Below, piece by piece: positions 3 to 23,197 of a stretch of DNA of 38,362 bases (position 1 is its first letter; each line of letters starts with the position of its first letter). This stretch comes from Terriglobales bacterium. Its GTDB lineage: Bacteria; Acidobacteriota; Terriglobia; Terriglobales; Acidobacteriaceae. The notes beneath the pieces were generated by a model. The model did not search any database, was not told the DNA's origin, and saw only the letters and a list, made by a program, of their open reading frames with translations. The DNA lies in NCBI GenBank assembly GCA_035624455.1, contig DASPRM010000029.1, forward strand, positions 1 through 38,362, in the 5' to 3' direction. A program made the translations under genes and the position numbers.

Positions 3-1958
<1,956 letters not shown>

Positions 1959-2011
1959 GCTGCGCTGCAAAAGACGCTCGAGCAGGAATGAAATCATAGC
2001 TGGCAACTGAC

Positions 2012-3661: not shown

Positions 3662-5205
3662 GTAGTGCGATCCAGCAGTACTTCACCAGCGCGGACTACC
3701 TGCTGTCGCTTCCCATGATCATGCTGTCGCTGTTTGCGCTGGGAATCCTGCTGATCGACCTGATGCTGCCGGCGGAATGGAAGCACGCCAACGTCTGGCT
3801 AGCGCTCGCCGGTATTCTGTTCTCTGCCGGTGGGGTATGGAAGATTCAACTCGCTTACCGGATTGCCGACTCCCGCGGCCAGCCTGCAGCCGCTTTTCTG
3901 GGCTTCGGGGACTCGCTCATTGTGGATCGTTTTGCCGTTTACTTCTTTTATCTATTCCTGGCGGGCGCGGCGATTGCCATTCTGATGGGAGTGCGCTACC
4001 TCGAGATCGAGCGCGAGAACCATGGCGAGTTCTATGCGCTGGTTCTGTTTTCCGTAGTGGGCATGATGTGCATGGCCGCGGGTTATGACATCGTGCTTCT
4101 GTTTATCGGCTTGGAGTTGATGGCGATCTCGACTTACGTGCTGGTGGGATTTCTGCGGCGGGATCAGCGTTCCAATGAAGCTGCGCTCAAATATCTGCTT
4201 CTGGGCGCATTTTCCTCGGGGATCTTCGCCTATGGGCTTTCTCTGTTTTACGGTCTCGCTGGCAGCACGAACGTGCGAACGATTGCGCAGAAGCTGGAAG
4301 ATCAGGTGCGCAACAACCCGCATGATCCGGTAGTGATTCTTGCTTTGCTAGCCACAGCCACAGGCTTGTTGTTCAAAATTGCTGCCGTGCCGTTTCATCA
4401 GTGGGCGCCGGATGCGTATGAAGGTGCACCGACCAGTATTACGGGTTTCATGTCCGTGGCAGTGAAGTCAGCAGCTTGGGCGATGTTACTGCGCATCTTC
4501 CTGTTCATGATCTATCCGTTGCGACCGACATACGTGCCTTTACTGGTGTTTGTCGCAATTGCCACAATGACTGGCGGCAACCTGGCGGCGCTCGCGCAAA
4601 CCAATCTGAAGCGGCTGCTGGCGTACTCTTCGATCGCGCATGTCGGCTATATGCTTCTCGGATTGATTGCCGGCACCGCGACAACCGCGAGCACAACCGG
4701 GATCAAAGGCATTCTGGTTTACCTGCTGGTGTACACATTCATGAACCTGGGTGCCTTCGCGGTGATTACTTCACTGCGCCGCCGCGACGTCATTGGCGAT
4801 GAGATTGATGACATCGCCGGCTTGATCTCGCGTGCACCCACGGAAGCAATGCTGATGCTGCTCTTTCTGCTTTCGCTCTCAGGAATACCGCCCATGGCGG
4901 GATTTTGGGGCAAATACTTCATCTTTCTCTCGCTGATCGAATCGGGACACTACCTGCTGGCCTCACTGGCGGTGCTCTATGCGGTTTTAGGGTTGTACTA
5001 TTACATGCGCATCGCGAGCGCCATCTTCATGCGACCGGCGGCCGACACGGAACCGGTTTCCATGAGCCCGGGTCTGCGGCTGGCATTGCTGATCACCGGC
5101 GCTGCCACGGTCTTCATTGGAATCTTCCCGGAGTTGTTCTTGCGCGCAGCGAATTGGTCACTAAATACGCCGCAGGCCAATGCGATCGCCAGCCTTTTCC
5201 GGTGA
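3658..5205 (+). CDS. nuoN: NADH-quinone oxidoreductase subunit N, copy 1
   Basis: Third antiporter-like channel subunit of complex I. Seen: LLFIGLELMAISTYVLVGF with the conserved glutamate, and KIAAVPFHQWAPDAYEGAP with the conserved lysine, over 515 residues that are almost wholly hydrophobic helices. The ATG overlaps the nuoM stop by 4 bp. It ends the visible nuo series on this strand. A 9-bp perfect hairpin starts at its last stop base, and the ATP synthase genes begin 75 bp later on the same strand. Confidence 0.96.
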   Translation: MSSAIQQYFTSADYLLSLPMIMLSLFALGILLIDLMLPAEWKHANVWLALAGILFSAGGVWKIQLAYRIADSRGQPAAAFLGFGDSLIVDRFAVYFFYLFLAGAAIAILMGVRYLEIERENHGEFYALVLFSVVGMMCMAAGYDIVLLFIGLELMAISTYVLVGFLRRDQRSNEAALKYLLLGAFSSGIFAYGLSLFYGLAGSTNVRTIAQKLEDQVRNNPHDPVVILALLATATGLLFKIAAVPFHQWAPDAYEGAPTSITGFMSVAVKSAAWAMLLRIFLFMIYPLRPTYVPLLVFVAIATMTGGNLAALAQTNLKRLLAYSSIAHVGYMLLGLIAGTATTASTTGIKGILVYLLVYTFMNLGAFAVITSLRRRDVIGDEIDDIAGLISRAPTEAMLMLLFLLSLSGIPPMAGFWGKYFIFLSLIESGHYLLASLAVLYAVLGLYYYMRIASAIFMRPAADTEPVSMSPGLRLALLITGAATVFIGIFPELFLRAANWSLNTPQANAIASLFR

Positions 5206-9173: not shown

Positions 9174-10616
9174 CTACTTCACCAATTCGTGGGCGGACTG
9201 CAGTGCGTACTGCAACACCCGATTAGGAAATACTCCCAGATATATTGTTGCCACCAGGCAGGCAATCAGCGAGACAACCAACGCGGGGGCCATTGGAGTG
9301 CACGGAACCTCGCTTTTGGGTTCACGCATATACATGTAGACCATCACGCGCAGATAGTAGTAGGAGGCAATGGCGCTGTTAATCACGCCGATGATCGTGA
9401 GCCCAACCAGATGTGATTGCATGGCTGCCTGAAAGACGTAGAACTTGGCGAGAAACCCTCCAGTGATCGGAATCCCAATCAGCGAGAGCAGAAACACCGT
9501 GAGTATGGCAGCCATAGCGGGTGCGCGCCGGCCCAGGCCGGAATAGTCATCAATGGTCACGTAGCGCTCGCCGAGGTTGGCGAAATGGCTGATCACTACA
9601 AAAGCGCCCACGTTCATTGCTGCATAGGCGGCGGTGTAGAAAATGGCAGCGGAAATCCCGATTTCTTTGGCTGCCGCGAACGCAACCAGCAGATATCCGG
9701 CGTGGGCGATGGAAGAATAGGCTAGCAGGCGCTTCACATTGTTTTGCACCAACGCGCCCAGGTTCCCGATGGTCATCGAGAGAATGGCTGACGCCCAGAT
9801 GAGCCAGAACCAGCCTGGGGCGGACGAGCCGAACAAAACGCGCAGCAACACGGCGAACGCTGCAGCTTTTGGTCCGGTGGACATCAAGGCCACAACCGGC
9901 GCCGGAGCTCCTTCATACACATCCGGCGTCCAGATGTGAAAAGGGGCAGAGGCTACCTTGAAGCCGAGGCCCACGAACATCATCGCCATTCCGGCATAGG
10001 CAAGCGTGGAGGGTCCGCTGCGTAGAGTGTTGGCGATCACGTACACGCTGGTGGAACCCGTGGCGCCGAACATCAGCGCCACTCCGTACAGGAAAAATGC
10101 GGTTGCGAACGAGCCCAGCAGGAAATATTTCAAAGAGGATTCAACGCTAATGGCCACCCTACGGCGAAAGCCCGCCAAAATATAGGTGGAAATGGAGGAG
10201 ATTTCCAGAGCGATGAATACCAGTACCAACTCGACTGCGGAGGACATGAGCATCATGCCCACGGTCCCCAGGAGGATAAGGCCGTAGTATTCGCCGCTTC
10301 GGAGTTGCTGCACCTGCATGTACTCGAAGGATGCGAGGATCACCACAATGGAGATGATCCCGATGAGCACATGAAAGAAGATGCTGAACGTGTCGACACG
10401 AATCATGCCGTCGAAGCCGAATCCGGTGTAGCCGGCTCCAAAAGCACTGGCTGCCGTGGCAAGGATTGCGCCAATGAGGGCCAGAATTCCGACAGGCTTC
10501 CGATCCCCGCTTTCGTCCAGCAGCGGATCGACGATCATGACCAGCATGCCAAACACAATAAGCAACAGCTCAGGCAGAATGCGGAGGTAATCGGCGGTGG
10601 GAATGGTAATGGTCAT
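9174..10616 (-). CDS. nuoN: NADH-quinone oxidoreductase subunit N, copy 2
   Basis: Antiporter-like channel subunit of complex I, 480 residues, a normal length. Seen: glutamate in LVFIALEISSISTYILAGF and the lysine block KVASAPFHIWTPDVYEGAP. It is the last gene of the minus-strand nuo operon and its start overlaps the nuoM stop by 4 bp. It shares the family core with the copy at 3658-5205 but differs throughout, including a shorter N-terminal region. Confidence 0.96.
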   Translation of the reverse strand: MTITIPTADYLRILPELLLIVFGMLVMIVDPLLDESGDRKPVGILALIGAILATAASAFGAGYTGFGFDGMIRVDTFSIFFHVLIGIISIVVILASFEYMQVQQLRSGEYYGLILLGTVGMMLMSSAVELVLVFIALEISSISTYILAGFRRRVAISVESSLKYFLLGSFATAFFLYGVALMFGATGSTSVYVIANTLRSGPSTLAYAGMAMMFVGLGFKVASAPFHIWTPDVYEGAPAPVVALMSTGPKAAAFAVLLRVLFGSSAPGWFWLIWASAILSMTIGNLGALVQNNVKRLLAYSSIAHAGYLLVAFAAAKEIGISAAIFYTAAYAAMNVGAFVVISHFANLGERYVTIDDYSGLGRRAPAMAAILTVFLLSLIGIPITGGFLAKFYVFQAAMQSHLVGLTIIGVINSAIASYYYLRVMVYMYMREPKSEVPCTPMAPALVVSLIACLVATIYLGVFPNRVLQYALQSAHELVK

Positions 10617-12133
10617 TTATGCTCTCCCACCACTTCGCTGGCATATTGCGGCGCGTTGCCGAGAATTGACTGGACCGAGGGATCGATGGCTCGTGTCCAT
10701 AACAGCGGGAAGATGCCCATCACCAGGGCTGCGAGGGCGAGCGGCCACATGGTCACCTTCTCACGCGTGTCGAGATCGGGAAGCGCTTGATTGGCGGGAT
10801 TGTGCACGGCTCCGTAGAAGACCCGCTGGTACATCCAGAGCATGTAACAGGACGACCAGATAACGCCTGTGGCAGCGACGATTCCATACAGTGCCCGAGC
10901 CTTGAATGCGCCCGTCAGCACCAGGAATTCGCCTACGAATCCATTCATCAGCGGCAAACCAATGGAAGCCAGCGTAATTATGAGGAAGAAAGTCGAGTAA
11001 ACGGGCATGGGAGTCGCGATGCCTCCATACTCGCTGATCTCGTAGGTATGGCGGCGGTCGTAAAGCATTCCACAAAGGGTAAAGAGTGCTCCGGTGGAAA
11101 CTCCATGTGCCAGCATCACGAAATTTGCACCCACCAGCCCGATGGTGGTGAAGGTAAAGATACCGAGAACGACAAATCCCAAATGGCTCACCGAGGAATA
11201 AGCGACAAGTTTCTTGAGGTTGGGTTGCACCATGGCCACAAGTGCGCCGTAGATGATGCCAATGATCGCAAGGGTAACAATCCAAGGTGCATTGCGGTGT
11301 GCTAGCTCGGGGAAGAGTCCCAGGTTAAAGCGCAGCATACCGTAGGTGCCCATTTTCAGCAGAACACCGGCAAGCATGACGGAACCGGCCGTAGGTGCTT
11401 CCACGTGCGCGTCTGGGAGCCAGGTGTGCAACGGGAACAGCGGCACTTTAACGGCGAAAGCGATGAAGAAACCGAGGAAAAGCCATTGTCCCGCGCTCCC
11501 GATATTGAGATTGCCAGTCGACAATGCCTGATGGATCACCACGAAATCGAAACTGCCGGTTCGTGCATAGAGCCAAAGAATGGCGGCAAGCATGAACATG
11601 GAGGCGATCATGGTGTACAGAAAGAATTTCACTGCAGCATAGATGCGCCGATCGTGTCCGTAGATCCCGATGACGAGCGCCATGGGAATCAGTCCTGCTT
11701 CCCAGAAGAAGTAGAAGAGGAACAGATCCAGAGAAACGAAAACCCCAATCAGCGCAGTCTCCATCAGCAGGAACAGGATGAAGAATTCTTTGACGCGCTC
11801 GTGTATCGACTTCCAGGACATCAGAACGCAAAGCGGCGTGAGGAAGGTAGTGAGCACAACCAGCCAGATGGAAACGCCATCGATGCCGAGGTGGTAGTGA
11901 ATATTGGGAGTGCTGATCCAGGCGTGGTCGATTTCAAACTGAAAGCCCGCGGCACCATTGGCGTAGTGCAAGGGTAGATGCAGCGACAGGATGAAAGTCA
12001 GCAGCGAAACCACCAGCGCGAACAGCCGTATGTCGCGGTCTCGGCGCGGGAAGAGTATCAACAGGAGAGCGCCGCCCGCGGGCACGAAAACGACCAGGCT
12101 GAGAATGAACGGATTGATGATCTCAGTATTCAT
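10613..12133 (-). CDS. nuoM: NADH-quinone oxidoreductase subunit M, copy 2
   Basis: Complex I channel subunit of 506 residues. Seen: YFFWEAGLIPMALVIG with the channel glutamate and KVPLFPLHTWLPDAHVEAP with lysine and histidine, then GSVMLAGVLLKMGTYG. It overlaps nuoL and nuoN by 4 bp on each side, so the three antiporter subunits are translationally coupled. It has no long hydrophilic tail, unlike the copy at 2012-3661. Confidence 0.96.
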   Translation of the reverse strand: MNTEIINPFILSLVVFVPAGGALLLILFPRRDRDIRLFALVVSLLTFILSLHLPLHYANGAAGFQFEIDHAWISTPNIHYHLGIDGVSIWLVVLTTFLTPLCVLMSWKSIHERVKEFFILFLLMETALIGVFVSLDLFLFYFFWEAGLIPMALVIGIYGHDRRIYAAVKFFLYTMIASMFMLAAILWLYARTGSFDFVVIHQALSTGNLNIGSAGQWLFLGFFIAFAVKVPLFPLHTWLPDAHVEAPTAGSVMLAGVLLKMGTYGMLRFNLGLFPELAHRNAPWIVTLAIIGIIYGALVAMVQPNLKKLVAYSSVSHLGFVVLGIFTFTTIGLVGANFVMLAHGVSTGALFTLCGMLYDRRHTYEISEYGGIATPMPVYSTFFLIITLASIGLPLMNGFVGEFLVLTGAFKARALYGIVAATGVIWSSCYMLWMYQRVFYGAVHNPANQALPDLDTREKVTMWPLALAALVMGIFPLLWTRAIDPSVQSILGNAPQYASEVVGEHK

Positions 12134-14127
12134 CTAACGCCTATCCAAATCATGAAGGCGATCACCGCCGCCGCTCCGGCTGCCACCCAGCCTGCATACG
12201 AGCGGAGATTTCCAGACTGCATTTGCCGCACCACGTCGGAGGTTTCCTTGGCGGCCCTGGCGCTCTCGTTCACGGTGCCATCGATCAAACCAGCATCAAT
12301 GGTCCTCCATAGCAGAGTGCGGGAACCTTCTACGATCGGCCACACGATGGCGGCTGCATAGAGTTCGTCCACGTAATATTTATGAAACACCAAGTCGTAG
12401 AGGCCGTTCAGGCCCTCGGCGATCTTTGCCGGCAGGTCGCGGCGCCGATAGTAGAGATACCACGCGAGCAGGAAGCCAAGTATTCCGGCAGCACTGGCCG
12501 CCACTGTAAGTGTCAGTTCCAGCCCGTGATCGGATTCGTGAGCGCCCGCTGGGGCGACTTCGCCAGAGACTGCAGCTGCCGGCAAGCCCTCGGAATAGGC
12601 GGAGAAAACCGGGGCCAGGAAATTGCCAATGCGGTCGTTGCCCGGCGTTCCGATCCATCCGCCAATCACTGCTAGCACTGCCAGGATGATCAGCGGAATC
12701 AGCATCACTCTGGGACTCTCATGCGGATGGCCGCCGTGGGCGTGGTGGTTCGAACCCTGGCCGCCACCAGTCTCGCCACGATATTCGCCGAAGAATGTAA
12801 GAAACCACAGGCGGAACATGTAGAACGCGGTGAGAAATGCAGTGAACCACAAGACTGCCCAATAGACCTTCGAACCGAAAGGACTGGTCCAGGTTTTGAA
12901 CAGAATCATGTCCTTGCTGAAGAAGCCGCTGAACAGGGGAGTTCCGGCGATCGCCAGGGTGGCCATTGTCATGCTCCAGAAAGTCACCGGAGCATACTTG
13001 CGCAGCCCGCCCATCTTCCGCATGTCCTGCTCGCCGCCAATCGCGTGAATCACAGAACCTGCTCCCAAAAAGAGCAGAGCCTTGAAGAAAGCATGGGTAA
13101 CGAGGTGGAACATGCCGGCAGCATAGGCCGCGACACCGCAGGCAGCGAACATGTAGCCGAGTTGGGAGATCGTCGAATAAGCGAGCACGCGCTTGATGTC
13201 GAATTGCGTGATGCCAATGGTCGCAGCAAAGAATGCGGTGAGCGTGCCAATCATGGCGACAGCCATCAGCGCATGCGGCGAGCGATCGAAGATGGCATGA
13301 GATCGCGAGACCATGTAGATCCCGGCGGTCACCATGGTGGCGGCGTGAATCAGAGCGGAAACCGGCGTGGGGCCTTCCATCGCATCAGGAAGCCATACAT
13401 AGAGAGGAATCTGCGCCGACTTGCCGGTGGCCCCCAGGAGCATCAACAGCCCAACTGCGGTCAATAGTCCCGCGCCCGCGGTCTCGGCTGGAAGCTTTGC
13501 GACCTGCTGGAATACATCTGTGTAGCGCAGGGAACCGAAGTGCTGGATGAGCAAGAAGAGAGCGATCAGAAATCCGAAATCACCCACGCGGTTGACGATG
13601 AACGCTTTCTTGCCGGCCGAGGGGGCAGTATCGCGAAGGAAATAGAAACCGATCAGCAAATACGACGCCAGTCCCACGCCTTCCCATCCCACGAACATCA
13701 GCAAGTAATTGTTCGCCAAGACCAGCGTAAGCATGAAGAACATGAAGAGGTTCAGGTAAGAAAAGAAGCGATAGTATCCGCCATCTTCGGCCATGTAACC
13801 GACCGAGTAGATGTGAATCAAGAAGCCGACCCCGGTCACGACCAGCGCCATCACCAGGGATAGTTGGTCCAATTGCAAACCGTACTCTGCGGAGAAACTT
13901 CCTGCCTTCAACCAAGTGCCGTAGGACTCGATGTGCGGAATTGCGCTGGCAGGAAGCTGAAAGAACTGCCATGCCACCCACCAGGTAACCAGCATCGAGA
14001 CCGCCACAAACAAAAGACCGATCGCAGTGACTGCAGCTTTGGGCAAGCGGCGACCCAGCAGGCCATTGACAGTTCCGCCGGTCAGCGGCAATAGCGGGAT
14101 AAGCCATAGATGTAAATTCGTAGGCAT
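12130..14127 (-). CDS. nuoL: NADH-quinone oxidoreductase subunit L, copy 2
   Basis: Full-length 665-residue channel subunit with the lateral helix at the C-terminus. Seen: FVGWEGVGLASYLLIGFYF, GKSAQIPLYVWLPDAMEGP, and a His-rich loop (NHHAHGGHPHESP) between late helices, which is at a variable place of the family. It starts 7 bp after nuoK. Its N-terminal helix LWLIPLLPLTGGTVNGLLG shows what is missing from the truncated copy at the left edge. Confidence 0.97.
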   Translation of the reverse strand: MPTNLHLWLIPLLPLTGGTVNGLLGRRLPKAAVTAIGLLFVAVSMLVTWWVAWQFFQLPASAIPHIESYGTWLKAGSFSAEYGLQLDQLSLVMALVVTGVGFLIHIYSVGYMAEDGGYYRFFSYLNLFMFFMLTLVLANNYLLMFVGWEGVGLASYLLIGFYFLRDTAPSAGKKAFIVNRVGDFGFLIALFLLIQHFGSLRYTDVFQQVAKLPAETAGAGLLTAVGLLMLLGATGKSAQIPLYVWLPDAMEGPTPVSALIHAATMVTAGIYMVSRSHAIFDRSPHALMAVAMIGTLTAFFAATIGITQFDIKRVLAYSTISQLGYMFAACGVAAYAAGMFHLVTHAFFKALLFLGAGSVIHAIGGEQDMRKMGGLRKYAPVTFWSMTMATLAIAGTPLFSGFFSKDMILFKTWTSPFGSKVYWAVLWFTAFLTAFYMFRLWFLTFFGEYRGETGGGQGSNHHAHGGHPHESPRVMLIPLIILAVLAVIGGWIGTPGNDRIGNFLAPVFSAYSEGLPAAAVSGEVAPAGAHESDHGLELTLTVAASAAGILGFLLAWYLYYRRRDLPAKIAEGLNGLYDLVFHKYYVDELYAAAIVWPIVEGSRTLLWRTIDAGLIDGTVNESARAAKETSDVVRQMQSGNLRSYAGWVAAGAAAVIAFMIWIGVR

Positions 14128-14134
14128 AAATTAG

Positions 14135-14437
14135 CTATAGCTTGAGCAAATTCACACGGTCGGGATTCAGAGTCTCTCGCGTGCGGAAGACAGAAATGAT
14201 GATTGCCAGTCCGACAGCCGTTTCCGCTGCCGCTACCACCATCACGAAAAAGACAAATACTTGACCACTCAACGCTTTCCAATAGGTAGCAAAGGCGACG
14301 AAAGAGAGATTGACACCGTTCAACATCAACTCGATCGACATGAAAATGGTGATGATGTTGCGCTTGATCAGGAATCCCAAAACGCCGCAGGCGAACAGGA
14401 TGCCACTTAACAAAAGATAGTAAGAAAGCGGGACCAT
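14135..14437 (-). CDS. nuoK: NADH-quinone oxidoreductase subunit K
   Basis: A 100-residue three-helix subunit with the family hallmark [19 protein letters not shown], including the membrane glutamate used in proton transfer, and a second one in [13 protein letters not shown]. The length is exactly that of the family. Its ATG overlaps the nuoJ stop by one base (TGATG). Confidence 0.97.
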
Positions 14438-14934
14438 CAGCTTTCCCTCCGGGCCAGTACTACGGCTCCCATAATGGCGATGAGAATCAGGACTGAAGTA
14501 ATTTCAAATGGCAGGAGGAATTGGTTGAACAACAGACGGCCGATTGTCTTCGCCGAACCATAGAGCGCGCCGACGCCAGCGGCTTCGGTTCCGGGAGTAC
14601 TGCGAACCAACTCCCAGGCAACCAAAACGCTGCCGATCAGCATGCCCGGTACGCCGAAAAGCAAAGCGACGCGGCTGCCGCGGGTATGCTCCTCTTCGCC
14701 GGCATTCAGCAGCATGATGACAAAAACGAACAGCACCATCACTGCGCCGGCGTAAATAATGACCTGCACAGCAGCTACGAACTCCGCCCCCAGCAGCAGA
14801 AATTCGACTGCCAGTGAGCCCATTACTACGATGAGGGAAAGCGCGCTGTTGATGGGATGGCGCTGAGCCACCAGATTGACCGCACCAGCAACGCAGACGA
14901 CCCCGAATATGGTGAATAAGGTGAGATGAAGCAT
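14437..14934 (-). CDS. nuoJ: NADH-quinone oxidoreductase subunit J
   Basis: A 165-residue membrane subunit with five helices. Seen: [20 protein letters not shown] and the conserved [20 protein letters not shown] segment with the pi-bulge tyrosine. Only 27 bp separate it from nuoH. This is where nuoI stands in standard operons, so nuoI is absent here. Confidence 0.96.
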
Positions 14935-14961: not shown

Positions 14962-16026
14962 TCAGGACCGCAGGGCCACAATCAGCCCGGTGACCACGAT
15001 GTTTGCCACTGCCAACGGCAATAAGAACTTCCAGGCTAACCCCATCAGCTGGTCGTAGCGGAAACGCGGCAACGTGCCGCGAACCCAAATATAAAAGAAA
15101 AGGAAAAACGCAACCCGTATCAGGAACCAGATCACCGGCAACAGTCCCTGCAGCCAGGCTGGGCCAAACACCGGGCCAGTCCATCCCCCCAGAAATAGCA
15201 CGGAGGCGAGGCAAGCGACGGTGACCATGTTGGCGTACTCTGCCATAAAGAACATGGCGAACTTCATGGAGCTGTACTCGGTGTGATACCCCGCTACGAG
15301 TTCACTTTCGGCTTCTGGCAAATCGAAGGGGATGCGGTTGGTCTCGGCGAATGCCGCCGTCAAGTAAATCAGAAACGCCACCGGCTGCAGGAAGATATTC
15401 CACTTGGGAATGAAACCGAACCATGTTCCAGCTTGTGAGTCTACGATTTCGCGCAGGCTAAAGGAGCCAGCCAGGATCAGCACGCCGATGAGCGAAAGCC
15501 CGAGCGCCACTTCGTAGCTGATCATCTGTGCGCTGGCGCGAAGCGAGCCCAGCAATGAATACTTGCTATTGGAGGACCAGCCTGCCAGGGCCACGCCATA
15601 AACTCCGATGGAGGTTATGCCCAGAATGATCAACAAGGCAATATTGACGTCGGTGATCTGTACAGCCGTGTGCACGCCGGCGACCGTGATCCAGCCACCA
15701 ATGGGAATCAGCGAGATGGCAATCAGCGACAGCGTCAGCGAAAGGAACGGCGCCAACAAATATAAGTACTTGTGAACGTACGGAGGAGTCAGGTCCTCCT
15801 TAAAGATGAACTTCAGGCCGTCGGCGAGCGGCTGCAGCAGCCCAAAAGGGCCCACCCGCTTTGGCCCCCAGCGGTTCTGGATGTGTCCCACCAGCTTGCG
15901 TTCCAGCCAGGTGGTGTATGCGACAGTAGTCAGGAGGACGAGAAGGAACAGTACGATCTTGATGATCGAGGCAATAACAAAGGTCGTCGTATCCAGGTTT
16001 CCGGTCGGCACAGTCTTTGTTCCCAA
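14962..16026 (-). CDS. nuoH: NADH-quinone oxidoreductase subunit H
   Basis: Membrane subunit at the junction with the peripheral arm, forming part of the quinone chamber. Seen: WLERKLVGHIQNRWGPKRVG, the acidic loop AETNRIPFDLPEAESELVAG and HTEYSSMKFAMFF. The 354-codon frame opens with TTG at 16026. A GTG at 16011 with GGGA nine bases upstream is an equally likely start, so the first few residues are uncertain. The 75-bp gap to nuoG is the longest inside this operon apart from the DinB region. Confidence 0.95.
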   Translation of the reverse strand: MGTKTVPTGNLDTTTFVIASIIKIVLFLLVLLTTVAYTTWLERKLVGHIQNRWGPKRVGPFGLLQPLADGLKFIFKEDLTPPYVHKYLYLLAPFLSLTLSLIAISLIPIGGWITVAGVHTAVQITDVNIALLIILGITSIGVYGVALAGWSSNSKYSLLGSLRASAQMISYEVALGLSLIGVLILAGSFSLREIVDSQAGTWFGFIPKWNIFLQPVAFLIYLTAAFAETNRIPFDLPEAESELVAGYHTEYSSMKFAMFFMAEYANMVTVACLASVLFLGGWTGPVFGPAWLQGLLPVIWFLIRVAFFLFFYIWVRGTLPRFRYDQLMGLAWKFLLPLAVANIVVTGLIVALRS

Positions 16027-16101: not shown

Positions 16102-18486
16102 CTAGTCGGCTGCCACTTCATTCTTGTCCGCCGGAACCTGGCGGAGCGGGTTTTCGATTACAGAGTTCAAGGTTTTTGAATAGCGTCCCAAAGTGCCGGA
16201 GGTGAATAGCGTGTCCTCGGCAGGGACAATCAATTCTGGATGACTGGGAATCGCATGCACCCAGGGGCCGTCGGGCAAAGTTGTGTGCTCGTCATTTCCA
16301 GCCATCAGGTTGAGACGAGAGACGTCGTAACCTGGAACCAGCCGCTGAATTTCATCCAGCATGGCCGTCGGATCGAAGGGGCTAAGTTTGGGCTCAATTC
16401 CATGCGCTATGAGCCAGACTTCGTGCCGGTCGGCCTCTCCCGACTGAGCACCTCGCGATTGTCCCATATCCGCTTTCAAGGCGCGCCCGAAGGGCACTAA
16501 CTCGCGTACATTGGATCCCATCGCGCCTGCGATCCGCACGATGATCTCAAAATCGTTCTTTACTGTGGTTACGTCTCCTGCCTTGCGCAACAGCTGCAGA
16601 TCGCCACAGGTATTGGTGAAGGTGCCAGACTTCTCGTAAGCGTTGGCTGCAGGAAGGACTACGTTGGCCATCGCTGCCGTTTCAGTCAGGAACATATCCT
16701 GGACAACAACAAATGTCCGTGAGAGCGAGAACGGGTCGAGTTGGTAGCGGGAAATCGGATTGCTTCCCACAACATAAAGCGCCTTCAGAGTGCCCTGGCC
16801 CGCAGCCGCGAACATTTGCCGCAGATTGAGGCCGGCAGACGGTGACACACGTGCGAACCACTCGTTCCGAAGCGAAGAGGGCAGACTGCCGACCTCGCTT
16901 ATTGGGATGTAGCCCGGAAGCAGGTCGGGATAAAGACCCATGTCGGCGGCGCCGCGCGAATTGGCGTAATCACCCAGGCAAACAAATCGCGCCTGCGGCA
17001 GCGCCCGTGCCAGTTCGGCGATGCTGTGGTCGCGCAATTCAGAACCAAACACCACGATGAGTTGCTGCTCGCCTTTCAATTTGGAGCGCAAATCCGCGAG
17101 AGCTTGTGGAGTTGTACCCTGGACGCCCAGTGTGTCTGAAGCCGCCGAATCACTCCCCAGGAAGCTGATGAAGTCTGCATCGCCATTGTCTTCGGAAACC
17201 TGCGCAAACACAGTTGCCTGGCGATGCAGCTTGACGGGCTTGGAGTTAACCACGTATAGACGTGCGCGGTTCAGGCGGACATTGGTACGGATTTGCCAAG
17301 CCAGCAGGGGATGCTGGTTTGTTGGATCGCTGCCAATGAGCAGAATGGCGGGGGCAGAAAAGACATCACGCATGCCGGCAGTAGCATTCTTCCGGCCGGC
17401 AAGTGCCTTCACGAAAGCGGGATAGTCAGCGGTGCGGTGATGATCGATGTTGTTTGTACCGAGCACGAGACGGGCAAACTTCTGCAGCAGATAGCTCTCC
17501 TCGTTGGTGGTACGAGTGGAGCCAATCACGCCAATGGCAGCGCCACCGTGCGTGTCCCGCGCAGATTTCAGTTCGCGCCCAACCAGGTCAACTGCTTCTT
17601 CCCAGGTTGCCGGTTCGAGCCGACCATTCTTCTTGATCAGCGGTTGCGTGATCCTCTGGCCGTTGTGCACGAAATCGAAGGCATAGCGGCCCTTAATACA
17701 GAGGAAGTCGCCATTGATTCCGCTCTTATCGCGATTATCGCCGCGTACAATCTCCATGCCGCTGTCGGAGCGTCGAATGCCCAGGGTCGTTTTGCAGCCA
17801 TCGGCGCAATGGGTGCAGATGGTGCCGACATGGTTCATCTCCCAGGGGCGCGTCTTATAACGGTAGGCGCCGGAGGTCAGGGCACCGACGGGACAGATAT
17901 CGATGCACATCCCGCACTCTTCACATTCCAGATGGTCGCCCTGGTTGGGGGCAATGATAGAACTGACGCCGCGCTGCTGAACGCCCAGGGCCCAGACGTC
18001 CATGCCCTCGCCGCAGATGCGTATGCAGCGATAACACAGAATGCAGCGGGGCCGATCAAAGTAAACCACCGGCGACCACTCCTGCTCATCGCGGTGATTC
18101 TTGAGCTCGATGAATTTGCTCTCGGCAGCGCCGTAGCTGAACGTCATGTCCTGCAGTTCGCATTCGCCGCCGGCATCGCACACCGGGCAGTCGAGAGGAT
18201 GATTGCCCAAAAGAAGCTCGACCATCCCCTTACGAGCCTGGCGGACTTCGTCGCTGTCGGTGACTACTGTCATTCCTTCCGTGACGACCGTGGTGCAAGC
18301 GGTCTGCAACTTGGGCATCTTTTCGACTTTCACCAGGCACATACGGCATGCGCCCTGCAGCGAAAGACCAGGGTAGTAACAGAAAGAAGGCACTTCGATG
18401 CCAACGCTCTTACACGCTTCGATGAGTAGCGTTCCTGGGGGAGCCGTTACCTTCTTGCCATCAACCGTTATGTTCACGTCTGCCAT
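16102..18486 (-). CDS. nuoG: NADH-quinone oxidoreductase subunit G with an eight-cysteine ferredoxin-like domain
   Basis: Largest peripheral-arm subunit, 794 residues, passing electrons from NuoF/E. Cluster ligands seen: [2Fe-2S] N1b by Cys36, 47, 50, 64; N5 by His96, Cys100, 103, 109; then Cys148-x2-Cys151-x2-Cys154-x3-Cys158 and Cys188-x2-Cys191-x2-Cys194-x3-Cys198; then N7 by Cys224, 227, 231, 263. Common NuoG proteins keep only four of the eight middle cysteines (cluster N4). The full double motif is the arrangement of HoxU, [FeFe]-hydrogenases and NAD-linked formate dehydrogenases, and predicts an extra [4Fe-4S] cluster. The rest is the molybdopterin-oxidoreductase-like fold, with no sign of a retained cofactor ligand that I can identify. 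Confidence 0.96.
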   Translation of the reverse strand: MADVNITVDGKKVTAPPGTLLIEACKSVGIEVPSFCYYPGLSLQGACRMCLVKVEKMPKLQTACTTVVTEGMTVVTDSDEVRQARKGMVELLLGNHPLDCPVCDAGGECELQDMTFSYGAAESKFIELKNHRDEQEWSPVVYFDRPRCILCYRCIRICGEGMDVWALGVQQRGVSSIIAPNQGDHLECEECGMCIDICPVGALTSGAYRYKTRPWEMNHVGTICTHCADGCKTTLGIRRSDSGMEIVRGDNRDKSGINGDFLCIKGRYAFDFVHNGQRITQPLIKKNGRLEPATWEEAVDLVGRELKSARDTHGGAAIGVIGSTRTTNEESYLLQKFARLVLGTNNIDHHRTADYPAFVKALAGRKNATAGMRDVFSAPAILLIGSDPTNQHPLLAWQIRTNVRLNRARLYVVNSKPVKLHRQATVFAQVSEDNGDADFISFLGSDSAASDTLGVQGTTPQALADLRSKLKGEQQLIVVFGSELRDHSIAELARALPQARFVCLGDYANSRGAADMGLYPDLLPGYIPISEVGSLPSSLRNEWFARVSPSAGLNLRQMFAAAGQGTLKALYVVGSNPISRYQLDPFSLSRTFVVVQDMFLTETAAMANVVLPAANAYEKSGTFTNTCGDLQLLRKAGDVTTVKNDFEIIVRIAGAMGSNVRELVPFGRALKADMGQSRGAQSGEADRHEVWLIAHGIEPKLSPFDPTAMLDEIQRLVPGYDVSRLNLMAGNDEHTTLPDGPWVHAIPSHPELIVPAEDTLFTSGTLGRYSKTLNSVIENPLRQVPADKNEVAAD

Positions 18487-18523: not shown

Positions 18524-19072
18524 CTATGACGCCGCCACCAACCGGCGGAAGCCTGAGCACGCCTTGATCTCTTCGATCTGCTCGGCGTGACGCTGGGGAT
18601 GCAGCGCAAGCACCAGCAGAGCCTGATAGCCGTCGATCGGACCGAGCAGGGGGTGATCAAGTGAGCGTTGCCGGAGATCATCCTGGTTCCGCTCTACAAA
18701 GGCGATCACTTGCTCACGGTTCTGTTTGAAGAAGTCGATGGCCTCGTCCGTGCGAGAGAACCTTGCGGAGGGCCGCGAAATTTCTGGAGCCATTAGCTTC
18801 TGCTTGCGGTCCAGCATGCTGTGCCGGATGGACTGATCGCGCGACGGATTTGCGTATGCTCCGGTCACAGGAGCTTTTTCCAAAGCGCGAAACATCAATT
18901 TTTCTACGGAGGCGACGTGCTCGACGCACTCGCGGATCGTCCAGCACTCAGGTGTAGAGCGGACCGAGCATTGCTCCTCGCTCAATCCTGCCACGGCCTT
19001 GAGGAATGTGTCGCGTCCGATGTGCAAGCAGCTCAGCAGATCTTGTCGTTCAGTCTCGGTGAAGATATTCAT
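18524..19072 (-). CDS. DinB-fold protein inside the nuo operon
   Basis: A four-helix DinB/YfiT-like protein. The likely metal ligands are a His in RECVEHVASVE (about residue 52) and the pair in LALHPQRHAEQIEEI (about 158 and 162), the usual His triad. Members act as thiol-dependent transferases or have unknown roles; nothing links the family to complex I. The frame extends to a TTG at 19087 that overlaps the nuoF stop, but the ATG at 19072 with AGTAGG just upstream is preferred. It lies between nuoF and nuoG on the same strand, 11 bp after the nuoF stop, so it is very probably co-transcribed. Confidence 0.85.
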   Translation of the reverse strand: MNIFTETERQDLLSCLHIGRDTFLKAVAGLSEEQCSVRSTPECWTIRECVEHVASVEKLMFRALEKAPVTGAYANPSRDQSIRHSMLDRKQKLMAPEISRPSARFSRTDEAIDFFKQNREQVIAFVERNQDDLRQRSLDHPLLGPIDGYQALLVLALHPQRHAEQIEEIKACSGFRRLVAAS

Positions 19073-19083
19073 CGGTAACCTAC

Positions 19084-20406
19084 TCAATGCGTCAATACGG
19101 GCAGCATCTGGACCGCGCCTTGGGGCTCAAACGGGCAGGGCTTGCCGTCCAGGTGGTCTTCAAATTCCTGGCGAAACTTCTGCACGATGGAGATGGTCGG
19201 CATGGCGGCGGCATCCCCCAGGGGACAGAAAGTCCGGCCCAACATGTTTTCGGAAAGGTAACGGATGTTGTCGATGTCGCGGCGAACGCCGCCCCCGGCG
19301 TGGAAACGGTCCAGCGTTTTCTTCAGCCAGTCCGTTCCTTCGCGGCAGGGAATACACCAGCCGCAGCTCTCGTGCTGATAGAACTTCATGATGCGCTGTG
19401 CGAATTTGACCATGCAGGCTTTGTCGTCGATGACAACCACGCCGCCCGAGCCCAGCATCGAGCCCGCCTTCATCAGAGCATCGAAATCCATGCCCACATC
19501 GCACTCCTCGGCACTAAGTACCGGAGTGGAAGATCCACCCGGCATCACTGCTTTCAGCTTGGCGCCATTGGGGATTCCGCCACCGACGTCGTAAATCATC
19601 TTCATCAGGTTGTATCCGAGAGGCAGCTCGTATACGCCCGGCCGATTCACATGCCCGCTGAGGCAGAAGAGGCGTGTGCCACCGTTCTTGGGTGTGCCCA
19701 GGTTCGCGTACCACTCGGCGCCATTCAGGATGATCTCGGGGACGCTGGCCAGCGTCTCCACGTTATTGATGATCGTCGGCCCTCCCCACAGGCCGACAAC
19801 AGCAGGGAAGGGAGGCCGAATGCGAGGGATGCCGCGCTTGCCTTCCAGCGACTCCATGAGCGCCGATTCTTCTCCGACTTCGTAAGCGCCCGCACCGCCG
19901 TGCCAATAAACATCGAAGTCATAACCGCTGCCGAAAATGTTTTTTCCCAGGAAACCCTTGCGGTAGGCATCGGCGATGGCCTTCTGCATGATCACCGAAA
20001 GGTAACGATACTCCCCACGAATATAGATATATCCGGTATGAGCCTGTACGGACAGGGCAGCGATCATTACTCCCTCAATTACTTCATGAGGATCATGCTC
20101 GAGGATCAGCCGGTCCTTGCAGGTCGCGGGCTCGCTTTCGTCGCCGTTGCACAGAACATATTTGGCCTTGGGGGACTGCTTCGGAACGAACGACCACTTC
20201 ATCCCCGTATTGAAGCCAGCTCCACCGCGGCCACGAAGGTTGGAAGCCTTGACAACATTGATGATGTCATCGGGCTGCATGGCCAATGCCTTTTGCACGG
20301 CCCGGTAGCCACCCAGCTCCAGGTAACGGTCGACGTCTGGCGCGCCCTTTCCGAAGCGCTTGGAGACTACCTTTACTTCATCGGGATGGGAAACGAGGTC
20401 AGCCAT
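19084..20406 (-). CDS. nuoF: NADH-quinone oxidoreductase subunit F
   Basis: FMN- and NADH-binding subunit that starts electron flow. Seen: GRGGAGF (59-65) for FMN/NADH, CNGDESEPATCKDR in the nucleotide pocket, the glycine-rich GAGAYEVGEESALMESLEG, and N3 cluster ligands Cys348, 351, 354 in ESCGWCIPCREG with Cys394 in FCPLGDAA. The length of 440 is normal. It follows nuoE after 9 bp. Confidence 0.97.
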   Translation of the reverse strand: MADLVSHPDEVKVVSKRFGKGAPDVDRYLELGGYRAVQKALAMQPDDIINVVKASNLRGRGGAGFNTGMKWSFVPKQSPKAKYVLCNGDESEPATCKDRLILEHDPHEVIEGVMIAALSVQAHTGYIYIRGEYRYLSVIMQKAIADAYRKGFLGKNIFGSGYDFDVYWHGGAGAYEVGEESALMESLEGKRGIPRIRPPFPAVVGLWGGPTIINNVETLASVPEIILNGAEWYANLGTPKNGGTRLFCLSGHVNRPGVYELPLGYNLMKMIYDVGGGIPNGAKLKAVMPGGSSTPVLSAEECDVGMDFDALMKAGSMLGSGGVVVIDDKACMVKFAQRIMKFYQHESCGWCIPCREGTDWLKKTLDRFHAGGGVRRDIDNIRYLSENMLGRTFCPLGDAAAMPTISIVQKFRQEFEDHLDGKPCPFEPQGAVQMLPVLTH

Positions 20407-20415
20407 TTGTCGCGA

Positions 20416-20898
20416 TTATCGCCGGTGTTTTTGGGCGATCTCATCTAACACGAGATCGACTTTTTGGGGCGTGAGATTCTCATGAAAGTCGTAGTTGACC
20501 TGCATGGCTGGAGCCCAGCTGCATGCCCCGATACATTCCACTTCTTCCAGGAAAAACAGGCCGTCGGGCGTGCTCATCTTGTGCCCAATACCCAGCTTCT
20601 TCTTGCAGTGATCAAGAATTTCTTCGCCGCCGCACAGCAGGCAACTGATGTTGGTGCAGACCTGCACGTTGTATTTGCCGCGCGGCTTGGTGGTCAGCAT
20701 GGAGTAATAGCTGATGACGTTGCGCACTTCGAGTTCGGTGAGCTCCAGGCGGCGGGCGAACTCGGAGATAACTTCGTCCGATAGATATCCGACTTCGTCT
20801 TGCGCGTACAAGAGCAGCGGGACGAGAGGAGAACGCTTCGTCGGGTAATGCTTTGCCATTTCGGCAAAGCGAGTTTCGAGTTCGTCGGAAAATTTCAT
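20416..20898 (-). CDS. nuoE: NADH-quinone oxidoreductase subunit E
   Basis: Thioredoxin-fold subunit with the N1a [2Fe-2S] cluster. Ligands seen: Cys81 and Cys86 (CTNISC), Cys122 and Cys126 (CIGAC). The frame can be read from 20928, but the ATG at 20898, four bases after the nuoD stop, gives the normal 160-residue protein starting MKFSDELETRF. The longer version would overlap nuoD by 26 bp and add residues without family likeness. Confidence 0.96.
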   Translation of the reverse strand: MKFSDELETRFAEMAKHYPTKRSPLVPLLLYAQDEVGYLSDEVISEFARRLELTELEVRNVISYYSMLTTKPRGKYNVQVCTNISCLLCGGEEILDHCKKKLGIGHKMSTPDGLFFLEEVECIGACSWAPAMQVNYDFHENLTPQKVDLVLDEIAQKHRR

Positions 20899-20902
20899 TT
20901 CT

Positions 20903-22108
20903 TTAGCGGTCAATCTCTCCCAGCACAATGTCGATACTGCCGATGGCTGCCACTACATCGGCAATCAGCCTGCCTTCGCACATCCTGGGCAGGGCTTGAA
21001 GGTTGGCCAGGCACGCCGAGCGCATGTGCACACGATACGGCTTAGCCGTGCCATCGCTGACAACGTAGTACCCCATCTCGCCGCGTGGCGATTCAACACA
21101 CTGATAGACTTCGCCAGCCGGAACCGCAAATCCCTCAGTGACAATTTTGAAGTGATAGATGAGCGACTCCATCTGGGTCTTCATCTTCTCGCGTTCGGGG
21201 AGAACTACTTTTGGAGCGTCGGCCTTGATCGGCCCCTCCGGCAGTCCTTCCAGAGTCTGCTTGACGATAGCAATGGACTCGCGCATTTCCTGCACACGCA
21301 CCAGATAACGGGCAAAAACGTCGCCGTCTTTGGACAAGGGGACCTTAAACTGAAATTTTTCGTAGCTGGAATATGGCTGGTCGCGGCGCAGGTCGGTGTC
21401 GACGCCGCTGGCGCGCAAGGTGGGTCCAGTTGCGCCCAGCGCAATTCCATCTTCAGCTGACAGGTACGCTACTCCCTTGGTGCGCTCCAGCCAGATAGGA
21501 TTGCCCGTCAGCAAGCCTTCATATTCATCGACACGGCCGGGGAAGATATCGGCAAATGCCTTGACCTTTTCGAGAAAGCCGAGCGGGATGTCCAGGGACA
21601 ACCCGCCGACGCGAAAGTAGGAGGTCATCATGCGCTGGCCAGACACCATTTCGAACATACGAAGGATGTCTTCGCGCTCGCGAAAACAATAGAGGAAGAC
21701 CGACATGGCGCCGATGTCGAGCGCGTGCGAGCCGAGCCAGACCAGGTGGGAGTTGATGCGCGTCAGTTCATTCAACATCACGCGCAGCCACTGCGCGCGC
21801 GGCGGGATATCGAGGCCGAGCAACTTCTCGACCGCCAGCACGTAGCAGAGATTGTTGGTCATCGGGCAGAGGTAGTCGATGCGGTCGGTCAGCACCACCA
21901 CCTGCTGATAGAACTTGGCCTCGCAGGTCTTCTCGATCCCGGTATGCAGGTAGCCGATGTCCGGCATGATCCGGACAACGCTCTCACCATCGATCTCCAG
22001 CACCAGCCGTAGCACGCCGTGGGTGGAAGGGTGCTGCGGCCCCATGTTGAGGATCATGGTGCGATCGGCGCCGGGTTCCAGGACGGGGGTTTGCGTCAGA
22101 TGGGCCAT
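20903..22108 (-). CDS. nuoD: NADH-quinone oxidoreductase subunit D
   Basis: The 49-kDa-type subunit that lines the quinone site, 401 residues. Seen: MGPQHPSTHGVLR with the quinone-site histidines, YLHTGIEK, and the C-terminal ESPRGEMGYYVVSDG and PYRVHMRSACLANLQALP. The hydrogenase-type nickel cysteines are absent, as expected. The start lies 2 bp after the nuoC stop. Confidence 0.97.
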   Translation of the reverse strand: MAHLTQTPVLEPGADRTMILNMGPQHPSTHGVLRLVLEIDGESVVRIMPDIGYLHTGIEKTCEAKFYQQVVVLTDRIDYLCPMTNNLCYVLAVEKLLGLDIPPRAQWLRVMLNELTRINSHLVWLGSHALDIGAMSVFLYCFREREDILRMFEMVSGQRMMTSYFRVGGLSLDIPLGFLEKVKAFADIFPGRVDEYEGLLTGNPIWLERTKGVAYLSAEDGIALGATGPTLRASGVDTDLRRDQPYSSYEKFQFKVPLSKDGDVFARYLVRVQEMRESIAIVKQTLEGLPEGPIKADAPKVVLPEREKMKTQMESLIYHFKIVTEGFAVPAGEVYQCVESPRGEMGYYVVSDGTAKPYRVHMRSACLANLQALPRMCEGRLIADVVAAIGSIDIVLGEIDR

Positions 22109-22110
22109 GC

Positions 22111-22608
22111 CTAGCGATAACCCTCAACAGGATAGTCCTTACGCATTGGATGCCCTTGCCAGTCCTCCGGCATCAGGAGCCGCCGCAGGTAAGGATGGCC
22201 TTCGAAACGTATCCCAAACAAGTCGAACACTTCACGCTCGAAGAAATTTGCTGACGGCCAGACCGGAACGACGGAGGGGACGCCAGCATCGTCGCCGCTC
22301 AACCTTACCTTGAGGCGCAAGCGCGATTTGCGCGGGTTTGAGAACAGGTGGTACACAACTTCGAAGCGCGGTTCTGAGGGATACCAGTCGACGCAAGTGA
22401 GGTCGGAGAGCGCGTCAAAACGCAGCACGGCATGATCACGAAGAAACCCGCAGGCCTCCCGGATGTGCGCGCGATGGATCCAGATGGTGAGTTCATTGCG
22501 ATCCCAGCGTGCGCTGTCTACCGCCGAAGGATTCCATTCCAGAAGAGCAGCAAGGTCCTGCTTCTCCTTCAATTTGTCCAGATCGGTAATCGCCGGTGTC
22601 AGAGGCAT
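22111..22608 (-). CDS. nuoC: NADH-quinone oxidoreductase subunit C
   Basis: The 30-kDa-type subunit of the connecting part, 165 residues. Seen: ALSDLTCVDWYPSEPRFEVVYHLFS, the hallmark WPSANFFEREVFDLFGIRFEGHP, and LLMPEDWQGHPMRKDYPVEGY. The start is one base after the nuoA stop (TGATATG). No nuoB lies between nuoA and nuoC and none is fused to this protein. Confidence 0.97.
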   Translation of the reverse strand: MPLTPAITDLDKLKEKQDLAALLEWNPSAVDSARWDRNELTIWIHRAHIREACGFLRDHAVLRFDALSDLTCVDWYPSEPRFEVVYHLFSNPRKSRLRLKVRLSGDDAGVPSVVPVWPSANFFEREVFDLFGIRFEGHPYLRRLLMPEDWQGHPMRKDYPVEGYR

Positions 22609-22609
22609 A

Positions 22610-23119
22610 TCAAGAGCGGCTCCTACCGCCTCCCGTGACCTCTTGGGCTTCGGACGGTTCGTTGGGGGCTAGCTTGCGCACGGCTGCCTCGAAATGGGCC
22701 GGCATGAAATCGGGTGAGGCCGGAATGCCCGTAGTAGGTACAACGCGCTGCGGATTCCAATCGAGCACGCCTTTTTTCCAGACATAGAAAAGACCGGACA
22801 TTACGATGAGGATGTAGATGAACATCTCCCAGAAGCCGAACATCTTCAACTCCCGCAGGAGCACCGCCCAGGGATAAAGGAAGATGGCTTCGACGTCGAA
22901 CAAGATGAACAGCATCGCGACAAGGTAAAACTTGACCGTGAAGCGTTCCTTGGTGCCGCCGGTGGGAGTAATGCCGCACTCATAAGGCTCGAATTTCTCT
23001 CGCACCCACTTGTGCTTGCCGATCAGCGTGGACATTACGATGAAGGCAGTCGCCAATGCGGCGGCTACCAGAGCCTGCAAGAGTAACGGGATGTAGCGGG
23101 CGAAGTAGTTGTGCGGCAT
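22610..23119 (-). CDS. nuoA: NADH-quinone oxidoreductase subunit A
   Basis: Three-helix membrane subunit beside the quinone chamber. Seen: the loop KFEPYECGITPTGGTKERFTVKFYLVAMLFILFDVEAIF, of which KFEPYECG and FDVEAIF are the family marks. The frame extends up to 23197, but that would run into the promoter at 23168-23197, so the ATG at 23119 (MPHNYFARY) is chosen, giving 169 residues. The hydrophilic C-terminal tail of about 45 residues after the third helix is longer than in most family members. It is the first gene of the operon. Confidence 0.95.
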   Translation of the reverse strand: MPHNYFARYIPLLLQALVAAALATAFIVMSTLIGKHKWVREKFEPYECGITPTGGTKERFTVKFYLVAMLFILFDVEAIFLYPWAVLLRELKMFGFWEMFIYILIVMSGLFYVWKKGVLDWNPQRVVPTTGIPASPDFMPAHFEAAVRKLAPNEPSEAQEVTGGGRSRS

Positions 23120-23167
23120 AAAGGCTGCTATATATAATGCGCGCCCAACGCGCAACCTAAACACTCG

Positions 23168-23197
23168 ACTATATTTAGTGCTTCGCCTAAGTGTCAA
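23168..23197 (-). promoter_or_regulatory. Sigma70-type promoter of the minus-strand nuo operon
   Basis: Read on the minus strand: TTGACA, an 18-bp spacer, then TATAGT. Predicted transcription start is near 23161, giving a leader of roughly 40 bases to the nuoA ATG. No second strong promoter was seen inside the operon. Confidence 0.8.

Follow-up and report, generated by a model that had tools for sequence, protein, structure and literature searches.

The nuo operon and its nuoG gene

The window, a stretch of 38,362 nucleotides from a Terriglobales genome, carries a minus-strand operon in the order nuoA, C, D, E, F, a DinB-like gene, G, H, J, K, L, M, N:

22610..23197, minus strand: nuoA (profile match)
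22111..22608, minus strand: nuoC (profile match)
20903..22108, minus strand: nuoD (profile match)
20416..20928, minus strand: nuoE (profile match)
19084..20406, minus strand: nuoF, with RGRGGAGF and the N3 cysteines and without an extra ferredoxin domain (profile match, translation)
18524-19087, minus strand: DinB-like gene between nuoF and nuoG
16102..18486, minus strand: nuoG of the eight-cysteine type, 794 aa, with a pterin-fold domain (TIGR01973, Pfam domains, translation)
14962..16026, minus strand: nuoH (profile match)
14437..14934, minus strand: nuoJ, directly after nuoH, nuoI being absent (profile match)
14135..14437, minus strand: nuoK (profile match)
12130..14127, minus strand: nuoL (Proton_antipo_M and Proton_antipo_N)
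10613..12133, minus strand: nuoM (Proton_antipo_M; nuoL, M and N distinguished by order)
9174..10616, minus strand: nuoN (Proton_antipo_M; distinguished likewise)

We assign the nuoG product to complex I on its N1b, N4 and N5 ligands, the membrane-arm genes downstream and a TIGR01973 score of 472.2 bits, which passes the cut-off of 470.05 by a narrow margin. Models for related enzymes fell short of their cut-offs: 163.2 bits against 333 for HoxU, 248 against 666.25 for the formate dehydrogenase alpha subunit, and 193 against 765 for HydA (group A6), the last match being confined to residues 4-206. An [FeFe]-hydrogenase HydA was ruled out by that score and a negative test for the H-cluster domain. 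Within nuoG we find:

18295..18381, minus strand: N1b [2Fe-2S] ligands Cys36, 47, 50 and 64 (translation; Fer2_4)
18160..18201, minus strand: N5 [4Fe-4S] ligands His96, Cys100, 103 and 109 (NADH-G_4Fe-4S_3)
17893..18045, minus strand: ferredoxin-like double-cluster domain, predicted to hold N4 and an extra A2-type cluster (translation, Pfam, alignment; putative pairing)
17698..17817, minus strand: N7 [4Fe-4S] ligands Cys224, 227, 231 and 263 (translation; Molybdop_Fe4S4)
16528..17655, minus strand: molybdopterin-oxidoreductase domain, residues 278-653, without the catalytic Cys/Sec-His pair (PF00384, alignment, fold matches)

The four N7 ligands had been missing from the list given in the first-pass annotation of this DNA.

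That annotation also remarked on the lack of nuoI, and this is borne out: nuoH and nuoJ lie 4 bases apart, measured as stop-to-stop frames. The gene for NuoB is likewise missing from the operon. The same genome encodes NuoI on another contig (G000:C102:37376-37897), where the match scores 132.6 bits against a cut-off of 113.05 and has no internal stop. This orphan nuoI (L190) sits beside a UbiD decarboxylase gene, and no other nuo gene was found near it within a 15-kb stretch of that contig. Five PF01058 matches occur in the genome, two of which, on contigs C101 and C47, look like NuoB. The eight-cysteine gene was scored in 67 genomes, and a search of 54 of these gave a NuoI match in every one (54/54), the best match showing an internal stop in two (G047, G207); NuoI identity is 75-86% within the family and class of the window. 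The idea that the missing gene hints at altered electron flow is therefore rejected.

The adjoining of nuoH and nuoJ without nuoI is common in eight-cysteine operons, being seen in 73/80 rows from a seeded scan, 25/33 rows of the window's family from an unseeded search and 19 of the remaining 43 eight-cysteine rows, some of them short stretches or formate-dehydrogenase-like genes. In none of the 80, 33 and 43 rows was nuoI seen beside nuoH. Among four-cysteine rows nine have nuoI beside nuoH and two (L180, L188) have nuoH followed by nuoJ without it. These two, and Sinorhizobium meliloti with eight cysteines and nuoI beside nuoH, show that the extra cluster is not strictly tied to an operon lacking nuoI. 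Detachment of nuoI looks like a lineage trait rather than a functional sign, and the window operon like that of an ordinary NADH-fed complex I with its B and I genes elsewhere.

A second nuoL-M-N set opens the window (48-5205, plus strand). Contig C75 of the same genome (G000:C75:1-5182, L194) ends in nuoA-C-D-H-I-J-K and an apparent nuoL start. The two probably form one complex I operon without an NADH module that has been broken at a contig boundary, although the two contigs showed no exact overlap.

Eight conserved cysteines in a ferredoxin-like domain

A double cysteine motif had been reported at 17890-18045, and the translation confirms it, with codons running from 18045 down to 17893. 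CILCYRCIRIC provides Cys148, 151, 154 and 158, and CEECGMCIDIC provides Cys188, 191, 194 and 198. Two Pfam models exceed their cut-offs here, Fer4_Nqo3 at residues 139-204 and Fer4 at 187-204.

Conservation was examined in an alignment of 194 NuoG rows, of which 148 are complex-I-type eight-cysteine rows of this lineage. The window gene is counted twice among them (WIN, L094); the others are 80 rows found by a seeded scan of reference genomes and 66 rows from an unseeded genome search and its stretches. Some species may be shared between the two sources, and a few solitary paralogues are included. The seeded rows are the best 80 of 579 confirmed stretches, Acidobacteriota by their titles, and all 80 have the eight cysteines, a biased count as the peptide ECEECGMC was among the seeds. 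The unseeded search was of 297 Acidobacteriota genomes, 225 of which gave a match at E 1e-60; from the matches listed we took 30 loci and 80 further stretches, sampling the lower-scoring ones. Its 33 rows from the window's family, the window itself not counted, all carry the eight cysteines (33/33). Eight-cysteine rows also occur in families f2, f20, f31, f59, f69, f70 and f77, and 32 rows from other families have only the four of N4, numbers that describe a sample of Acidobacteriota rather than frequencies in the phylum. Left out of the 148 were L157, L160, L170-L176 and L215 (a 4-kb stretch), which are formate-dehydrogenase-like or otherwise NuoG-like; no nuo membrane genes were seen beside L157, L160 or L170-L176.

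Each of the eight cysteines is present in 148/148 rows, as are the N1b ligands Cys36/47/50/64 and the three N5 cysteines Cys100/103/109. Non-ligand cysteines vary, with Cys503 found in 83/148 rows, Cys627 in 64/148 and Cys25 in 142/148. Given this difference, the eight-cysteine motif is not a product of chance, and the alignment, which would have counted against the first-pass prediction had the cysteines varied, favours it. Separately, five stretches (L086, L089, L091, L093, L134) carry an eight-cysteine NuoG-like gene and no other nuo gene in the stretch examined; in L091 it is followed by genes for a universal-stress-type protein and for an SdhB-like iron-sulfur protein.

The four-cysteine rows bear on which residues hold which cluster. 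Positions 148, 151, 154 and 198 are all cysteine in 32/32 of them, whereas 188, 191 and 194 are never cysteine (NSV, NST, SSL and similar) and position 158 varies between Cys, Thr, Met and Leu. Because the four-cysteine proteins retain 148/151/154/198, it is most likely that the domain is cross-ligated, N4 being bound by Cys148/151/154/198 and the extra [4Fe-4S] cluster by Cys158/188/191/194. Two-cluster ferredoxins have a swapped ligand arrangement of this kind. The first-pass prediction of one additional cluster is supported as regards an extra [4Fe-4S] site relative to the NuoG of E. coli, mycobacteria and mitochondria. Two sequential clusters (148-158 and 188-198) are rejected, given the four positions that the four-cysteine rows retain.

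Structure prediction had low confidence in this region. The AlphaFold model of full NuoG, from 38 aligned sequences, has a mean pLDDT of 69.7 with residues 93-271 below 50, and that of residues 1-285, from 58 sequences, has a mean of 47.8 with nearly all of 93-285 below 50. The 50 rows listed by a fold search with the full model include chains of complex I, formate dehydrogenases and further molybdoenzymes, but not 7q5y. Formate dehydrogenases head the list, with Z scores within 1 of each other (6tg9_A: Z 34.2, rmsd 11.2, 528 residues).

Possible roles of the predicted extra cluster

The extra cluster can be kept without N7, and N7 without it. In the 16 scored rows of family f20 (L144-L148, L197-L201, L203-L208) the N7 positions read DGMD or DSMD, yet 16/16 keep the extra-cluster site, at pairwise identities down to 64.5%. 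N7 is kept in the window and in 131 or 132 of the 148 rows (L044 lacks one N7 cysteine), and also in 32/32 four-cysteine rows that have no extra cluster. The five N7-less rows placed in the NuoG tree form one clade (100/99), so N7 may have been lost in f20 in a single event. Since the 16 rows lost N7 and kept the extra cluster, the latter is not merely a wire to N7 and is selected for something beyond reaching it. As cluster and N7 are separable both ways, treating them as a single wire left over from a formate dehydrogenase is an oversimplification. The N7-less enzymes amount to a natural experiment on the function of an off-path cluster in complex I. A seventeenth N7-less protein with eight cysteines, L202 (G169), was read by eye only and enters no count.

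We consider it probable that the window encodes the NuoG of an ordinary NADH-fed, membrane-bound complex I whose ferredoxin-like domain holds a second [4Fe-4S] cluster, acting off the main path as a side branch or reservoir and as a stabiliser. The domain would work in the manner of a two-cluster ferredoxin whose last ligands are swapped. Electrons would pass from NADH through FMN, N3, N1b, N4 and N5, then through N6a/N6b of the NuoI encoded elsewhere, to N2. Off N4, and within tunnelling reach of it, the extra cluster would form a side branch, and where N7 is kept, as in the window, would join N7 to the chain; the N7 branch would then end at a pterin-fold domain that has no ligand for a catalytic metal. 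Most likely the extra cluster would store electrons off the main path and stabilise the N4 domain, and it was probably inherited from an ancestor resembling formate dehydrogenase, HoxU or HydA. A reservoir or stability role is favoured by elimination. The finding extends a complex I with ten predicted clusters, one beyond the nine of E. coli, to many soil Acidobacteriota.

The annotation had proposed that the extra cluster could let electrons into or out of the complex at a second point, with a hydrogenase, formate or ferredoxin partner. In that case a soluble protein (ferredoxin, a hydrogenase or another) would dock near the cluster or near N7 and trade electrons with complex I. The homologous clusters of HydA and FdsA do pass electrons to a second active site, as far as the available parts of the reports describe them, and retention of the cluster in 16/16 proteins after N7 loss indicates that something selects for it. 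However, none of the genes in the operon was recognised as encoding a partner, and the DinB-like gene recurs in 3/48 relatives' stretches of over 15 kb (L015, L039, L059). At the Mo/W ligand site the window NuoG reads IDHHRTADYPAF, where formate-dehydrogenase-like rows have CARxCHxxT or similar. The catalytic Cys/Sec-His pair is absent from the 15 eight-cysteine complex-I rows displayed and present in the formate-dehydrogenase-like rows L171, L173, L175 and L176 of the same alignment. Because the pair is missing, formate oxidation at the NuoG pterin domain appears unlikely from the alignment; NuoG was rejected as the alpha subunit of an NAD-dependent formate dehydrogenase on the same ground and on the score given above.

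Hox- and FdhF-like genes and a further [NiFe]-hydrogenase gene do occur in the genome. One locus (L195, G000:C133:6000-22000) encodes a Hox-type NAD-linked [NiFe] hydrogenase with HoxE-, F-, U-, Y- and H-like genes, its HoxU-like protein having the eight cysteines and an Arg in place of His at the N5 site. A second (L196, G000:C4:85000-99272) has an FdhF-like molybdoenzyme beside hydrogenase-4/formate-hydrogenlyase-like subunits, and a third (L013 1252-2412, G000:C149) a [NiFe]-hydrogenase small subunit with NiFe_hyd_SSU_C. All lie at loci apart from nuoG, the Hox genes with E-, F- and U-like genes of their own, which, with the missing catalytic pair, speaks against a hydrogenase or formate partner. 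A ferredoxin-linked role has been proposed for Nitrospina NUO-2, whose NuoG2 also has an extra [4Fe-4S] cluster (available part of PMC3578206), but the window NuoF keeps its FMN motif and lacks the extra ferredoxin domains of that complex. A second entry or exit is hence possible but unsupported, and we think it unlikely. A more specific version seems improbable to us: in this Acidobacteriota lineage the cluster would serve complex I as a functional side door, trading electrons with ferredoxin or another soluble partner of low potential, and where N7 has been lost it would have become the end point of that branch. If true, this would explain why the extra cluster outlived N7.

On a further reading, inheritance and the demands of folding maintain the eight-cysteine domain, and its cluster has no redox role. 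In a NuoG tree of 77 rows, built with the trait columns omitted, a single branch (87/75) separates eight- from four-cysteine rows, and all eight cysteines are present in each of the 10 rows that resemble formate dehydrogenase, Hox or other NuoG-like proteins. The eight-cysteine clade of the Acidobacteriota also takes in the long-branched NuoG of S. meliloti (95/84). The one-branch split and the eight-cysteine outgroup rows favour, as far as this tree goes, a loss of the extra cluster in the four-cysteine line. A quick NuoF tree, however, requires three changes, with eight-cysteine Acidobacteriota nested among four-cysteine ones, and a quick NuoH tree requires two, so that descent is not settled; both also fit regain, a swap of NuoG or several losses. 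This makes descent the weak part of our explanation, with the 87/75 split of NuoG set against disagreeing NuoF and NuoH trees. While the single change in the NuoG tree would suit a vestige, the NuoF tree does not support simple descent, and the presence of all eight cysteines in 148/148 rows, when two non-ligand ones reach 83 and 64, points to selection, perhaps structural, leaving a cluster without redox function with little probability. Least probable is that the cluster exists only as a wire from N7 to the chain, serving a still-active pterin site or another substrate: its place in RcFDH (as described in the available part of PMC7171172), the retention of N7 in most of the 148 rows and the formate dehydrogenases that head the fold matches suit this, but the 15 rows displayed lack Cys/Sec then His at the Mo/W position, the 16 N7-less rows keep the cluster and the 32 four-cysteine rows have N7 without it.

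Comparison with known enzymes

That HoxU, HydA and FdsA-type proteins have all eight cysteines, as the annotation stated, agrees with our alignments, in which FdsA, HydA1 and the 7q5y NuoG chain align with all eight and mycobacterial, E. coli and mitochondrial chains with four. Its companion statement, that typical NuoG has only four, is incomplete: the eight are present in 7q5y and on S. meliloti pSymA, and an equivalent cluster is predicted for complex I of other bacteria. Cys158, 188, 191 and 194 are in register with FdsA and HydA, and the extra cluster is the counterpart of A2 in formate dehydrogenase FdsA and of A3 in HydA.

The solved chain 7q5y_A, which we take to be Aquifex aeolicus NuoG, has the same eight cysteines and N7-type cysteines in 632 aa, against 794 aa in the window (compared by sequence). 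S. meliloti pSymA NuoG (L189) shares the eight cysteines and N7 at 32% identity; unlike in the window, a nuoI-like gene adjoins its nuoH. FdsA of NAD-dependent formate dehydrogenase (6tg9/6tga) has the same eight cysteines, with A1 corresponding to N7 and A2 to the extra cluster, but is soluble, has no membrane arm and carries an active bis-MGD site with Cys-His. HoxU has the eight-cysteine domain without a pterin-fold domain, and HydA has it with an H-cluster domain in place of the pterin fold. We met no mention of an extra NuoG cluster in Acidobacteriota in the titles and abstract openings of the openly accessible literature searched.

In the available part of PMC7171172, A1 of RcFDH is equated with N7 and A2 couples A1 to the chain, while in HydABC A3 has the corresponding role and lies less than 10 A from both neighbours (PMC9499530, available part). 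The former also states that an A2-equivalent cluster had earlier been predicted from sequence in the complex I NuoG of Campylobacter jejuni, Helicobacter pylori and Aquifex aeolicus, which belong to a different phylum and are set beside the window by that description. The available part of PMC3578206 gives Nitrospina NuoG2 the clusters N1b, N4, N5 and N7 plus one additional [4Fe-4S] and suggests ferredoxin reduction by the NUO-2 complex. NUO-2 of Nitrospina gracilis and Kuenenia resembles the window in this extra cluster of NuoG2; its NuoF2 lacks FMN and has extra ferredoxin-like clusters (PMC3578206, same part), whereas the window NuoF is ordinary. Membership of the Nitrospina-type NUO-2 was rejected on the RGRGGAGFNTG of NuoF and its Pfam domains, which are only Complex1_51K, SLBB and NADH_4Fe-4S. 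NuoG with an extra cluster is thus a kind already known, of which the window is a further case.
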